Part shown: piece by piece, positions 46,161 through 50,298 of the stretch | Numbering within the stretch: the first letter of the stretch is position 1 | Layout of the letters: each line of letters begins with the position of its first letter | Position numbers and translations under genes: made by a program | Assembly (NCBI RefSeq): GCF_041435355.1 | Contig: NZ_CP108443.1 | Location: 434,001-498,000, forward strand | Length of the DNA: 64,000 nucleotides | Reading direction: 5' to 3' | From: Streptomyces sp. NBC_01276 | Lineage (GTDB): Bacteria; Actinomycetota; Actinomycetes; Streptomycetales; Streptomycetaceae | The notes under the pieces: model-generated | The model's input: the letters and a program-made list of their open reading frames with translations, nothing else | Told to the model about the DNA's origin: nothing | Databases searched by the model: none

Positions 46161-46823
46161 TCAGGGGCGGCGTCCGGCCCAGGCCACCAGCCGGTCGATG
46201 GCCGGGGCCCCGGCGTCCACGGCGACCACCTCGGCGAAGGGGATCCGCCCGCCACGGGTCTCGGCCGGCAGTGCGCGACGTACGACGTCGATCACCCGCT
46301 CGATCAGGCCCTGGTCCCACTCCGGGTCCTGTCCGGTCGCCCTGGCCAGGTCCCAGGTGTGCACCGTGAGCTCGTGGGTGTAGACGGCCGCGGCGGCCGC
46401 ACCCGGCAGGACGCCCATCGGCAGGCGCAGCTGCCGCCCCAGGACGCCCGGATCCGCCCACACCTCCGCGACCTCGCGGGCACCCGGCTCCCAGGCCGCC
46501 GCCCATCCGCCGTCGGGGATCTCGTCGGCGAAGGACGGCACGCCGAACGGGTCCTCGCCGCGCCCGATCACCGAGATCCGGCGGACGACGGCGACGAGGT
46601 GGCTGGACAGCCGCCGCACGTCGAACTCCTCGCAAGGGGTCGGGTCGTCGTACTGCTCGGGCCGGACGGCGGCCAGCGTACGGCCCGCCAGCTCGACGGC
46701 CGCGGCGAGGTCGGCCCGCGGATCGAAGGAAGAAGGGGAGGCGGCGGAAGCGGGGTCGGAGGGGGCTGCGGCGGTACCGGTGGAGCCGGACGGGGTCTCG
46801 ATGAGCTGCTCGGTGTTGTTCAT
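46161..46823 (-). CDS. TIGR03086-family metal-binding (DinB/MDMPI-like) protein
   Basis: A 220-residue protein starts MNNTEQLIETPSGSTGTAAA with AGGATGG ahead of the ATG. After a 35-residue flexible leader it has the mycothiol-dependent-maleylpyruvate-isomerase-like four-helix bundle: DLAAAVELAGRTLAAVRPEQ, PTPCEEFDVRRLSSHLVAVV (first His) and YTHELTVHTWDLARATG (HxxxH), which together bind a divalent metal. Such proteins are thought to be thiol-dependent transferases in actinobacteria. It is divergent from the WYL regulator at 46923, with a 27-bp dyad between them, so the regulator probably controls it. Confidence 0.85.
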   Translation of the reverse strand: MNNTEQLIETPSGSTGTAAAPSDPASAASPSSFDPRADLAAAVELAGRTLAAVRPEQYDDPTPCEEFDVRRLSSHLVAVVRRISVIGRGEDPFGVPSFADEIPDGGWAAAWEPGAREVAEVWADPGVLGRQLRLPMGVLPGAAAAAVYTHELTVHTWDLARATGQDPEWDQGLIERVIDVVRRALPAETRGGRIPFAEVVAVDAGAPAIDRLVAWAGRRP

Positions 46824-46840
46824 ACGTCCATCCTGGAAGC

Positions 46841-46867
46841 AAAAGTGGCCATCCTCCGGCCACTTTT
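46841..46867. promoter_or_regulatory. 27-bp operator dyad between TIGR03086 and WYL genes
   Basis: AAAAGTGGCC (46841-46850) and GGCCACTTTT (46858-46867) are exact inverted repeats around ATCCTCC. It lies 18 bases from the minus-strand start and 56 bases from the plus-strand start. Confidence 0.8.
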
Positions 46868-46922
46868 CCGTGGAAAAATGCGAAGGCGACGACGAGCCCG
46901 CCCACGCAGGAGGAAAGAACGC

Positions 46923-47894
46923 ATGAGAGCCGACCGGCTGGTGGCGACCCTGCTCTTCCTCCAGGAGCGCGGCCGCGTCACCGTCCCCGAAGTGGCCGCC
47001 GAACTGGAGGTGTCCCAGCGCACCGCGCGCCGCGACCTGGAGGCCCTGGCCACGTCCGGCATCCCCGTCTACTCGCAACGCGGCCGCGGCGGCGGCTGGT
47101 CCCTCGTCGGCGGCGCCCGTACCGACCTCACCGGGCTGACGGCCGAGGAGATCCGGGCGCTCTTCCTGATCACCGGCCCCCTGTCGGCCACCCCCGAACT
47201 GCGCACCGCCCTGCGCAAGCTGGTCCGGGCCCTGCCGCCGACCCTGAGGCCGCAGGCCGAGGCCGCGACCCGCGCGGGGGTCGTCGACGCCACGGACTGG
47301 TCCCGCAACGCCGTCACCGCCGATGCCGTCCACCGTTCCGCGCTCCAGGCCGCCGTCGTGGACGGGATCCGAGTCCGCCTCGGGTACGCGGGCCTCGGCA
47401 AACCCGCCGGCGAGCGTACCGTCGACCCGCTCGGGCTCGTGGCCAAGGCGGGGGTGGACTACCTGGTCGCCGGTACGGAGAGCGGCCTGCGCACCTTTCG
47501 GCTCAGCCGGGTCACCTCCGTCGAGCCGACCGGTGAACCGGTGGTCCGGCCGCCCGACTTCGACCTCGGCACGGCGTGGCGGGCGTTGTCCGGGGCCTTC
47601 CAGGACGGCATGTACGCGGTGACCGCCCGGGCCCGCGTCCGCCCCGACACGCTGCCCCTGCTGCAACGGTTCCTCGGCGGCCGTGTGCGCGTCGGTGGTC
47701 CGCTGCCCGACGGCTGGACCGAGGTCTGGGTGTCCGGCCCGGCCGCCAAGGCCCTGGCGGGCCACCTGGCCGGACTGGGGGCGGGGGTCGAGGTGCTGGA
47801 GCCGCCCGAGGTACGGCAGTGGCTGGCCCGGATCGGCGCCGAACTCACGGACACGTACCCGGGGGAGGAACCGCCCGCTCCACCCGGCCCGTAG
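46923..47894 (+). CDS. WYL-domain transcriptional regulator (YafY type)
   Basis: A 323-residue protein starts with ATG, with AGGAGG upstream. An HTH_11 domain spans ~3-60: ADRLVATLLFLQERGRVTVP, EVAAELEVSQRTARRDLEAL and GIPVYSQRGRGGGWSLVGGA (wing). The WYL domain (~140-215) contains ALQAAVVDGIRVRLGYAGLG, TVDPLGLVAKAGVDYLVAGT and GLRTFRLSRVTSVEPTGEPV. A WCX-like C-terminal domain follows (VTARARVRPDTLPLLQRFLG). WYL regulators sense small ligands or nucleic acids. It probably binds the AAAAGTGGCC dyad and regulates the divergent gene and itself. Confidence 0.9.
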   Translation: MRADRLVATLLFLQERGRVTVPEVAAELEVSQRTARRDLEALATSGIPVYSQRGRGGGWSLVGGARTDLTGLTAEEIRALFLITGPLSATPELRTALRKLVRALPPTLRPQAEAATRAGVVDATDWSRNAVTADAVHRSALQAAVVDGIRVRLGYAGLGKPAGERTVDPLGLVAKAGVDYLVAGTESGLRTFRLSRVTSVEPTGEPVVRPPDFDLGTAWRALSGAFQDGMYAVTARARVRPDTLPLLQRFLGGRVRVGGPLPDGWTEVWVSGPAAKALAGHLAGLGAGVEVLEPPEVRQWLARIGAELTDTYPGEEPPAPPGP

Positions 47895-47896
47895 GG

Positions 47897-47902
47897 TATA
47901 TT
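47897..47902 (+). promoter_or_regulatory. Putative -10 element of the tRNA-like gene
   Basis: TATATT stands out from the GC-rich surroundings seven bases after... the preceding gene's stop region, about 42 bases before the RNA fold. A 5-bp hairpin CCGGG-ACT-CCCGG lies in the leader (about 47920-47932). No convincing -35 was found. Confidence 0.4.
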
Positions 47903-47943
47903 CGATCTTGTGCTCGCAGCCGGGACTCCCGGTCGCGGGGCTC

Positions 47944-48012
47944 GCGTTGGTGGTCCAAGGAAAGACACCCCACTTCCCGTGGGGGAATGCAGGTGCAAGG
48001 CCTGCCCAGCGC
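47944..48012 (+). ncRNA. Non-canonical tRNA-Gly(UCC)-like RNA
   Basis: The sequence folds as a cloverleaf. The acceptor is GCGTTGG (47944-47950) with CCAGCGC (48006-48012), seven pairs with one G-T. The D arm is GTC (47953-47955)/GAC (47964-47966) with loop CAAGGAAA. The anticodon stem is CCCCA (47968-47972)/TGGGG (47980-47984) with loop CTTCCCG, giving T33 and anticodon TCC. The variable loop is GAAT. The T arm is GCAGG (47989-47993)/CCTGC (48001-48005) with loop TGCAAGG. G1-C72, C2-G71, G3-C70 and T73 are bacterial tRNA-Gly identity elements. The T loop lacks T55 (G instead) and the D stem has only three pairs. CCA is not encoded. It could be a specialised tRNA, a tRNA-like regulatory RNA or a degenerating tRNA. 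Confidence 0.65.
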
Positions 48013-48018
48013 TCGATC

Positions 48019-48052
48019 AGGGCCCCGGCCTCCTCACGGAGGCCGGGGCCCT
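48019..48052 (+). terminator. Strong terminator of the tRNA-like gene
   Basis: Perfect 15-bp arms AGGGCCCCGGCCTCC (48019-48033) and GGAGGCCGGGGCCCT (48038-48052), loop TCAC, followed by TTT; it begins six bases after the RNA fold. Confidence 0.9.
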
Positions 48053-48069
48053 TTGACGTTTCACCGCCT

Positions 48070-48290
48070 CACAGGACGGTGACCACGCCGCTCGCCGGGT
48101 CGTGGCAGCAGCCGTGGACAGGCAGGCGGTCATGTCCGAGGGGTCCCTCCCGTCGGGGACGAAACCACCCGGGATGCGGAGTTCGAAGACCTCGCCGGGG
48201 AGGGAGCCCACGATGGACGCCGCGTGCAGACGCGGGTCCGTGCAGGCGATGAGCAGCACGTCGGGGCGGAGGGCGCCGGCCACACCGGCT
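48070..48290 (-). pseudogene. Beta-carbonic-anhydrase-like fragment
   Basis: The minus strand reads AGALRPDVLLIACTDPRLHA then ASIVGSLPGEVFELRIPGGF, matching the LFIACSDSR zinc-ligand motif of beta-carbonic anhydrases with Thr replacing Ser. After a frameshift near 48130 it ends CCHDPASGVVTVL stop. The first ~90 and most C-terminal residues are missing. Confidence 0.6.
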
Positions 48291-49071
48291 GCGCGACCTG
48301 GGCGTCCACCGGAGCGCCCCGCGCCCGCCCTTCGTCGATCGGCCCTTGCACCAGGGACCGCCGCCGCGGCGGCGGTACGGGCGGACCCGTACCGGGACGC
48401 CTGCTGCGGACGTCCACGGGCACGCACGTCCCGACCACCGTAGGAGGCCCGGACACCCCGGCTCCTCTGATCGGCTGATGCCCGGGGTGAGCGCTGCGCG
48501 TGAGCGCGTGTCCGAGGTCCGTGGGCGTAGGGGTCCGTGGGCCGGGACGCACGCCTGCCCACGCACAGCGGTCACACGGCGCGGCGAGGAAGAGCTGTGT
48601 CCGCCGGTCTGCCGGGCGTACGCGCGGGCCCCTCGTCGGAGGTGACCGCCGCGCCCGTGCGTACCTCGCCGTTCAGCGCACCCCGCGTTCCAGCCGCGCT
48701 GCCGGCCGGCGGTTCGGCCGCGGAGATGCGCCGGGCGATCCTGAGGCCGTCCACCACGGGCCGGCTGTCGTCCTCGTCCTCGTCCTCGTCCTCGTCGGCG
48801 GAGTGCCGGAGGCCCAGCACGTGGCTCGACCTCCGGGCCGGCGCTCGTCAGGTCGACGCGGCCGCCCCCCCCTCACCGGCGGTCCACACCGCGCCGGTCA
48901 GGCCCCGGACGGCGCCGCCGCGAGGGCGTACGCACAACGCGGCAGGACCGCGAGACGGCCGCACGGGGAACACCGGCACGATCGCTGACGGTGCCCCACC
49001 CGGCCCGGGGCGCTGCTCCGCTCGGCCCATGCCGGGCTGCGAACCCCCTTGAGCCTCCCTACCGTGGCCGG
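48291..49071. other. Intergenic region with a TCCTCG tandem repeat
   Basis: No supported gene. At 48768-48797 TCCTCG is repeated four times between two TCG units; on the minus strand this would encode an Asp/Glu run (ADEDEDEDEDD) in an unassigned 82-codon frame. The plus-strand frame would be poly-Ser. Just before 49072 TACCGT may be the -10 of the carboxypeptidase gene. Confidence 0.45.
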
Positions 49072-50298
49072 ATGGCCCTCAGTCCGTCAGCACGCAGGCT
49101 CCTCGCCCGGGCGACCGCCCTGGCAGCCGGCGCGAGCGTCGTCCTCATGCCCCCGCTCACCGGCGCCGCGGCGCGGGCCGAGCCCGCTCCGCCGCGCGCC
49201 GAGGCCCCGCCGGACCCCGCCCTGCTACACCGCCCCGGGGTCCAGGTCCGGCCCCACCCGGGCGCCCCTGCCCTGCCCGACGACCTGTCCGCACTGTCCT
49301 GGCTGGTGGCCGACTCCGGAAGCGGGGAGGTGCTCGCCGCCCACGACGCCCACCTGGGACTGCCGCCCGCCAGCACCATGAAGACCCTCTTCGCGCTCAC
49401 GGCCCTGCCCCACCTGCCGCGCGGCGGCACCCACACCGTCACCGACGCCGAACTCGCCGACGTGGGCGAGGGCAGCAGCCTCGTCGGGCTCGACGCCGGC
49501 CTGACGTACCGGATCCCCGACCTGTGGCGGGGCGTCTTCCTCAGCTCCGGCAACGACGCCGTCCACGTCCTGGCCTCCATGAACGGCGGCTGGACGCAGA
49601 CGGCCGCCCAGATGCAAGCCCGAGCCCGCGCCTTGGGCGCGACCGACACCCACGTCGTCTCCCCGGACGGCTACGACGCCGAAGGCCAGGTGTCCTCCGC
49701 CTACGACCTCGCCGTCTTCGGCCGGGCCGGGCTCGCCGACCCAGACTTCGCCCGCTACGCGGCCCTCACCGACGCGCAGTTCCCCGGGGATACGGACGCC
49801 GAGGGGCGGCCGGCCTGGACGTACGGCATCGAGAACACCAACCGGCTGCTGACCGGCGAGGACGGCGTCGGCGTCTACCCGGGCATCGTCGGCGTCAAGA
49901 ACGGCTACACCTCCGAAGCCGGATACACCCTGGTCACGGCCGCACGACGGGACGGCCGCACCCTCCTCGTCACCGTCATGAACCCCCAGCGGGGCGGCGC
50001 CTTCGCGGTGTACGAGGAGACGCGGGCCCTGCTGGACTGGGGCTTCGCCGCCGCCGGCCGGGTGGAGCCGGTCGGCTCGCTCCTACCGCCGCCCCGGCCC
50101 CAACGAGCCGGAACGGCCGCCCCGCCCGCCGCCCCGCCGCCCCCGGCGTCCGCCGCCGGCACCGGGACCGCCTACGCCTGGCCGGCCGGCCTCCTCGCCG
50201 GCACCGGCGCAGCCGCGGCGGCCTGGTACCACCTCCGGCGCCGACGGCCGCGCCCCGCTCCGCCGTCGCAGACCGCCGGCCCCGGGCCGACGCCCTGA
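49072..50298 (+). CDS. D-alanyl-D-alanine carboxypeptidase (S11 family)
   Basis: A 408-residue penicillin-binding protein. It starts MALSPSARRLLARATALAAG; no ribosome binding site precedes the ATG, so a leaderless mRNA is possible. A signal segment (~8-37) is followed by the catalytic domain: STMK (101-104, nucleophile Ser101), SGN (159-161) and KNG in VGVKNGYTS (276-278), the position of KTG. A Pro/Ala-rich linker and a C-terminal membrane helix (TAYAWPAGLLAGTGAAAAAW) with an Arg-rich cytoplasmic tail follow. It trims the terminal D-Ala of peptidoglycan stem peptides outside the cell. KNG is seen in several actinobacterial relatives, so activity is expected. Confidence 0.9.
   Translation: MALSPSARRLLARATALAAGASVVLMPPLTGAAARAEPAPPRAEAPPDPALLHRPGVQVRPHPGAPALPDDLSALSWLVADSGSGEVLAAHDAHLGLPPASTMKTLFALTALPHLPRGGTHTVTDAELADVGEGSSLVGLDAGLTYRIPDLWRGVFLSSGNDAVHVLASMNGGWTQTAAQMQARARALGATDTHVVSPDGYDAEGQVSSAYDLAVFGRAGLADPDFARYAALTDAQFPGDTDAEGRPAWTYGIENTNRLLTGEDGVGVYPGIVGVKNGYTSEAGYTLVTAARRDGRTLLVTVMNPQRGGAFAVYEETRALLDWGFAAAGRVEPVGSLLPPPRPQRAGTAAPPAAPPPPASAAGTGTAYAWPAGLLAGTGAAAAAWYHLRRRRPRPAPPSQTAGPGPTP

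Follow-up and report, generated by a model that had tools for sequence, protein, structure and literature searches.

Staphylococcus has non-proteinogenic tRNA-Gly species whose hallmarks, in the consulted part of PMC4052509, are the change of G18 G19 to UU or CU and the weak EF-Tu pairs A49-U65 and A51-U63. The element that we describe here is, like the isoacceptors of Staphylococcus aureus, tRNA-Gly-like and presumed to act outside translation, and it shares A51-U63 with them; it differs in having G49-C65 rather than A49-U65, in keeping G18 G19, and in being dispersed, multicopy, optional and without an observed link to FemAB (PMC4052509, in part). An earlier note on this DNA had drawn the staphylococcal parallel, and two of the three hallmarks tested speak against it: G18 G19 is kept and 49-65 is G-C (once G-U), which leaves A51-U63 as one of the two weak EF-Tu pairs. 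The tRNA-Other of Bacillus cereus, compared by description alone, is the tRNA-like part of a longer, non-translating transcript, as the element is predicted to be, but it comes from one locus beside a genomic island, whereas the element is a dispersed family (PMC3399842, in part).

The canonical Streptomyces tRNA-Gly(UCC), of which one copy was found in the same genome (C1:5091550-5091620), shares with the element the cloverleaf, UCC, the pairs G1-C72, C2-G71 and G3-C70, and U73. It has an ordinary T loop and a 7-nt anticodon loop with A37 and is recognised by Rfam's tRNA model, whereas the element, present in several copies, combines the T loop UGCAAGG with an anticodon arm that varies and a 5' hairpin of its own. 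We found a second atypical tRNA-Gly(UCC) at C1:3679260-3679332 on the plus strand (L307 1350-1422; L322 7761-7833), where it lies by two tRNA-Gly(GCC) genes. Like the element, it has UCC, a glycine acceptor and G55 in the T loop (UGCAAU); unlike the element, it is recognised by Rfam's tRNA model, has the T loop UGCAAUC and, in the sequences of five genomes, shows a bulged T stem and a D loop without GG. It matched 132/132 Streptomyces sampled and is mostly single copy (one copy in 125, two or three in 7). Among the open-access full-text matches listed, and in the consulted parts of PMC11678152, PMC3765725, PMC11109978, PMC8388888 and PMC4705527, there is no description of the element family, though an sRNA at these coordinates may already have been published.

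The tRNA-like element and its surroundings

ARAGORN called a single tRNA gene, tRNA-Gly(tcc), in the window (the whole 64-kb stretch of DNA that was analysed); its position and those of the accompanying features are given in Table 1. The RNAfold minimum-energy structure of the body was a cloverleaf (-33.4 kcal/mol, z -2.66, with 3/200 shuffles equally good) with an acceptor stem of 7 bp, a D stem of 3 bp, and anticodon and T stems of 5 bp each. Two closing pairs were added by RNAfold: C32-G38 in the anticodon loop and U54-G60 in the T loop. The acceptor pairs are G1-C72, C2-G71 and G3-C70, U73 is at 48013, and the 3' end reads TCGA, leaving CCA unencoded. CCA itself was encoded in just 81/229 copies, and other tRNA genes here often lack it too. 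The terminator stem starts six bases after C72, and its T run is weak (TTTG). The description in the earlier note, which listed the cloverleaf, the anticodon TCC, the glycine pairs and U73 as well as TATATT, a 15-bp terminator six bases downstream, the T loop TGCAAGG and the missing CCA, agrees with the sequence throughout. A chance origin of the cloverleaf is excluded by conservation and covariation (see below), not by folding energy alone.

Table 1. Coordinates of the element and neighbouring genes in the window.
Feature	Position	Strand	Remarks
WYL-domain regulator gene	46923-47894		neighbour of the element
-10 box TATATT	47897..47902	+	without recognisable -35
GATCTT	47904..47909	+	matches Gbn site GATCWT; near expected transcription start; putative site
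5' leader hairpin	47913..47939	+	predicted fold; sequence varies among copies, structure kept
tRNA-Gly-like body, 71 nt	47944..48014	+	includes U73 and C74; ARAGORN, RNAfold, family pairing
Anticodon-like UCC in loop CUUCCCG	47975..47977	+	position 37 is a pyrimidine; sequence reading, ARAGORN
T loop UGCAAGG (G55, G59, G60)	47994..48000	+	invariant across family
U73 and C74	48013..48014	+	both in 229/229 copies; positions outside the search regular expression
Intrinsic terminator: 15-bp stem, 4-nt loop, TTTG	48019..48055 (stem 48019-48052)	+	predicted fold
D-alanyl-D-alanine carboxypeptidase gene	49072-50298		neighbour of the element

The Rfam tRNA model (RF00005) gave no match at E<=10 in 46500-49500 around the window copy, and none of its 79 matches at E<=0.1 in the whole genome was any of the five copies of the element. 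When 4227 Rfam families, tmRNA among them, were run against 46500-49500, eight matches were obtained at E<=10, none of them above the gathering score. ARAGORN detected only some of the copies.

Other sequences were observed alongside. A fragment resembling beta-carbonic anhydrase (ACTDPRLHAASIVGSLPGEVFELR; 48070-48320, minus strand, inside a larger ORF, read by eye) looks like a gene remnant in the interval from the element to the carboxypeptidase gene. Low-scoring tRNA-like genes at C3:5147, C1:606118, C1:5691176 and C1:7817574 have ordinary T loops and a D arm that is odd in a similar way (CAGAGGTCGTCGC or nearly so), and are possibly another accessory tRNA group. A tRNA-Gly(UCC)-like gene of genome G343 (L105 1501-1572 and L385 213-284, the same place) has an ordinary T loop and the acceptor GCGCCGG/TCGGCGC; it may be an intermediate between normal tRNA-Gly and the element family.

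A dispersed family in Streptomyces

Five intact, near-identical copies of the element were found in the genome: the window copy, on a 583-kb contig, and four on the main contig at C1:241077 (-), 263266 (-), 264887 (-) and 7491137 (+). The word stand-alone, used in the earlier note, fits the element as a transcription unit and not as a gene, since it is one of five. The 583-kb contig may be a plasmid; it also carries a tRNA-Met(CAU) gene (C2:336203-336276, minus strand) identical to the chromosomal copies.

The element is found almost only in Streptomyces, in roughly half of those sampled. BLAST with 47930-48056 gave matches in 117/199 genomes of the genus, many of them multicopy, and many of the listed hits had only the 71-nt body in common. 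This tally is too high, since 7/36 genomes rechecked with a covariance model gave no match; all seven had weak BLAST hits. A search with strict filters, which lose weak matches, found the element in 159/293 genomes, a count that includes at least four genomes matched solely via the other atypical tRNA-Gly (L106-L109) and one via L105. An exact D/T-arm pattern was present in 16/28 Streptomyces versus 2/93 genomes of other genera in the family, with a reversed control pattern matching none. Among the matches listed for 246 genomes of the class, every one above 60 bits fell in Streptomyces; four candidate matches, of 38.6-40 bits, lay in other genera. The pattern scan of named genomes returned at least 120 stretches, and the 80 listed comprised 79 from Streptomyces and one from Actinacidiphila. 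Streptomyces lavendulae CCM 3239 (L127) carries at least two copies. In plasmids, 67/72,556 records matched (65 Streptomyces, 2 Streptantibioticus) at 133 places, with a maximum of eight in one record. No genome had more than six intact copies among 30 that were selected for carrying multiple copies of subtype I.

A covariance model built from subtype I detected two diverged forms, subtypes II and III. The three share the acceptor ends, the D and T arms and the variable loop, and the anticodon arm is swapped. The anticodon loop could be parsed in 228/229 copies, one being unparsable. Subtype I has 7-nt loops, CUUCCUG or CUUCCCG (CUUCCGG in one copy), and the others have 6-nt loops: CAACCG, CAGCCG, CUGCCG or CAUCCG in subtype II and CUCCAA or AUCCAA in subtype III. 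The T loop TGCAAGG was seen in 227/228 parsed copies; the selection regular expression fixes most of this loop, and loci found by the model agree. Pattern-derived loci have most of the D and T loops fixed, so that loci obtained with BLAST or the model give the best measure of how constant these loops are. By score and length, the 30 genomes with several subtype I copies held no intact copy of subtype II or III, and one decayed subtype II-like relic (L377) occurred among them. Damaged copies were also observed: L376-L380 are shortened or mutated, some consisting of the 3' half and terminator alone, in genomes that also hold intact copies, and L148 (2978-3042, minus strand), 3.4 kb from an intact copy, has kept its promoter and terminator and lost GGAAA of the D loop. 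L381 is a weak match to the element.

Covariation was assessed on 108 matches (51 distinct) fitted to the model, many of them at pattern-derived loci. Standard pairs filled 99.7% of 1004 cells versus 91.5% in shuffles, and sliding the partner by 1-3 columns reduced pairing to 35-50%. Two-sided changes were found in 6/20 pairs (shuffle mean 3.4, 1/500) and in 79 cells versus 15.7 in shuffles. Further pair types showed no excess (20 versus 19.1 in shuffles, 198/500). Comparison of the copies shows, at this level, a gene family with a common predicted structure.

The anatomy around the body was analysed in 229 distinct copies (198 of subtype I, 23 of II and 8 of III), collected with a regular expression on fetched loci; 115 of them come from the pattern scan of named genomes. 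TAnnnT stood at the best-scoring site, picked within 40 positions, in 224/229 copies, and in 146/198 copies of subtype I this box lay 46-48 nt ahead of the body. The leader had a mean folding z of -1.94, with 64% of the 229 copies below -1.5, versus -0.08 and 10% for the upstream control; the mean z of the terminator was -6.84. GATC was present within -55..-25 in 197/229 copies and GATCWT in 155/229 (68%; 130/198 in subtype I, 22/23 in II and 3/8 in III). Control counts of GATCWT were 7/229 further upstream, 0/229 downstream and 3/61 in other tRNA leaders of the genome, the 61 including any element copy, which was then skipped. GATCWT has been reported as the site of Gbn, a nucleoid protein that tends to reduce the expression of genes to which it binds (PMC9239103, in part); most element promoters carry such a putative Gbn-type site. 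A shared promoter and terminator layout is apparent from comparison of these sequences.

Selection was examined at a tsaD-linked site (Pfam TsaD, 2.7e-96), where the element directly follows a small adjacent gene. This site was used because the window locus offered no clean empty site: in the six relatives read, the DNA downstream of the WYL gene is unrelated to the window. Among the best 30 loci from 150 genomes searched, the element was present in 9 and missing in 21. Across the nine orthologous copies, the core had a mean pairwise identity of 0.99, the promoter 0.97 and the leader 0.82; at the same nine loci the adjacent gene reached 0.81, the terminator 0.66 and the downstream DNA 0.37. 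In twelve genomes, cores were 99.4% identical within a genome (41 pairs) versus 92.3% between genomes (554 pairs), and leaders were 75% and 65% identical, while far-upstream DNA stayed near the 58% shuffled baseline. The duplicated unit accordingly runs from promoter through terminator, and the copies of any one genome, though their leaders differ, seem to give almost identical RNAs. Judged from these comparisons, the element is a selected RNA and not tRNA decay. The earlier note had allowed for a lack of conservation or covariation in related genomes and for random decay of a normal tRNA-Gly; both conservation, including that at an orthologous site, and covariation are present in Streptomyces, and together they rule out decay of an ordinary tRNA, though decayed copies exist (L376-L380).

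Glycine identity and decoding

The bacterial glycine identity set consists of U73, G1-C72, C2-G71, G3-C70, C35 and C36 (Table 1 of PMC9976931, consulted in part). The three acceptor pairs were invariant in 50 distinct rows, and CC was found in the anticodon loop of 228/228 parsed copies, despite the changing loop length and other letters. The identity set read by bacterial GlyRS is, in its letters, present in the element and conserved across the copies compared, with C35/C36 in the 6-nt loops numbered by analogy. Thermus GlyRS further reads U16 and C50-G64, according to the same excerpt of PMC9976931. U16 is absent from the element, and C50-G64 is U-G in 8/51 rows. The elbow positions U8, A14, A15, G18, G19, U48, U54, C56 and A58, numbered as we take them to correspond, are kept in nearly all copies. 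Elbow anatomy was compared with that in the available part of PMC4810234. GG was found in the D loop of 228/228 parsed copies, a count largely presupposed by the regular expression; it is also kept in model-found loci of subtypes I-III, one copy having lost GGAAA (L148).

Decoding tRNAs have a 7-nt anticodon loop with U33 and a purine at position 37, and an ordinary T loop has U54 U55 C56 R57 A58. In subtype I the loop has 7 nt with U33, but position 37 is a pyrimidine in 196/197 copies. Loops of 6 nt were present in 31/228 copies (subtypes II and III), and U33 is lost in subtype II. The T loop UGCAAGG departs from the ordinary one by G55. Four points make decoding unlikely: the 6-nt loops, the pyrimidine at 37, the absence of U33 from subtype II, and the canonical tRNA-Gly(UCC) that the genome also carries. 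The element has the fold of a tRNA for glycine, with the marks that let such a tRNA be loaded, yet appears unable to decode.

Possible roles of the element

We give about an even chance to the reading that the element is a tRNA-like RNA that can be glycylated but does not decode, is produced from several gene copies and acts outside translation. A dedicated RNA gene at dispersed sites would yield a transcript of about 150 nt comprising the 5' hairpin, the tRNA-like body and the terminator. The body would adopt the tRNA L-shape with a near-normal elbow, and tRNA-maturation enzymes would probably trim it. Ordinary GlyRS would probably charge it with glycine, since all three subtypes retain the glycine identity set of bacteria. 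The RNA would not decode, its anticodon arm being replaced wholesale between subtypes, with 6-nt loops in two and pyrimidine 37 in the third, and would therefore act outside translation. It would most likely resemble glycyl-tRNA and either be used by a factor that handles glycyl-tRNA or titrate that factor, and the amount of the RNA would be set by copy number and by the promoters, most of them with a Gbn-type GATCWT site. Transcription, maturation, glycylation and lack of decoding are here all inferred from sequence, and the choice between glycine donor and decoy is a guess. The suggestion in the earlier note of a non-translational tRNA-Gly or tRNA-like RNA gains from the selection, the kept glycine identity and the improbable decoding; the role in peptidoglycan that came with it does not.

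Several points weaken the glycylatable reading. Glycine identity could persist partly by descent. G55, G59 and G60 may impair maturation or EF-Tu use, and the U54-G60 pair predicted by RNAfold would compete with the normal T loop. U16 is absent, C50-G64 is partly U-G and one copy is without GGAAA; CCA is mostly unencoded, though this is common for tRNA genes of this genome; and one covariation measure, that of further pair types, was no better than shuffles. An essential-donor role is ill-suited to an RNA present in about half of Streptomyces with limited copy numbers.

The element might instead be a decoy or regulator that occupies GlyRS, or an enzyme attacking or using the glycyl-tRNA acceptor end, with charging incidental or absent; we regard this as possible, though rather unlikely. 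The acceptor end, the elbow and CC are the constant parts, as such a role would favour. Accessory functions gather in Streptomyces chromosome arms, and copies of the element lie on plasmids and are crowded in the arms: of 52 copies in 16 single-contig genomes, which were non-randomly drawn and mostly had rounded lengths, 30 were in the outer 10% on either side versus 10.4 expected (p = 2.6e-9). Both U73 and G71, which specify the Gly-tRNA acetylating toxin TacT in the consulted part of PMC9976931, are in the element. However, no linked toxin or target gene was seen among 51 neighbour contexts. The 266 neighbouring proteins from these 51 sequences (some overlapping) gave no cluster over 4/51 contexts, and the clusters were either orthologous sites or common families (by eye, short-chain dehydrogenases for example) shared by two or three loci. 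Six annotated plasmid contexts, with incomplete gene tables, had nothing in common; one IS5 transposase was noted. A seventh plasmid context carried no annotation.

A base-pairing small RNA, in which the tRNA fold is a scaffold exposing the loop (CUUCCY in subtype I) to Shine-Dalgarno-like sequences, is improbable. Read as sequence, the loop of subtype I complements purine-rich ribosome-binding sites, but loops of subtypes II and III such as CAACCG/CAGCCG and CUCCAA break most of this pairing, although they retain CC and the acceptor is unchanged. An anti-Shine-Dalgarno small RNA was rejected on this loss of complementarity in subtypes II and III.

We consider it just as improbable that the element has no host function, being a selfish dispersed repeat derived from a tRNA or a set of tRNA copies in decay. 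A mobile element or repeat would be expected several times per genome in unrelated surroundings, as the element is found, and the family is dispersed, multicopy and present in plasmids, with a unit running from promoter to terminator and with decayed copies (L376-L380). Against this, core identity exceeds that of the adjacent gene at the orthologous site, compensatory changes occur and the promoter is conserved. In addition, 0/50,697 phage records and no viral contigs (exact pattern) matched, and no protein cluster exceeded 4/51 contexts. A phage origin was rejected on the same absence from phage records and viral contigs.

A tRNA-Gly serving the peptidoglycan glycine bridge in staphylococcal style is the least credible reading: glycine identity is kept, the T loop is atypical and FemX of Streptomyces coelicolor uses aminoacyl-tRNA (PMC4052509, in part), but FemAB genes were present in 40/40 genomes, element-bearing or not, the element is missing in many Streptomyces that have FemAB, its neighbour is unconserved and the other atypical tRNA-Gly(UCC) is in every Streptomyces sampled. 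A second FemAB gene was no commoner with the element (9/20 genomes) than without (10/20; Fisher p = 1), the counts being made by hand from split matches and the 20 genomes without it defined by the strict-filter search. The nearby DD-carboxypeptidase, mentioned in the earlier note, is not a shared neighbour of the copies, and among the 51 contexts no other common neighbour ties the element to the cell wall. For a cell-wall donor used by FemX, the second atypical tRNA-Gly(UCC) would be the better candidate on its sequence and distribution.

The glycylatable, non-decoding reading can be carried further, to a Streptomyces RNA class that is a glycine-charged look-alike of tRNA, never decodes, exists in up to eight dispersed or plasmid copies that stay alike in each genome, is timed by Gbn and donates glycine outside the ribosome; in this full form we find it doubtful. 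The three natural subtypes, in which the anticodon arm, the elbow and the identity elements have evolved independently, make charging, maturation and EF-Tu avoidance directly testable. In Streptomyces, the chief producers of antibiotics, this RNA family is widespread and under strong selection, and it appears to be nameless. If the element is glycine-charged yet non-decoding, it would be a tRNA gene family that left translation and multiplied, and it would point to a further, novel glycyl-tRNA user or regulator in Streptomyces.
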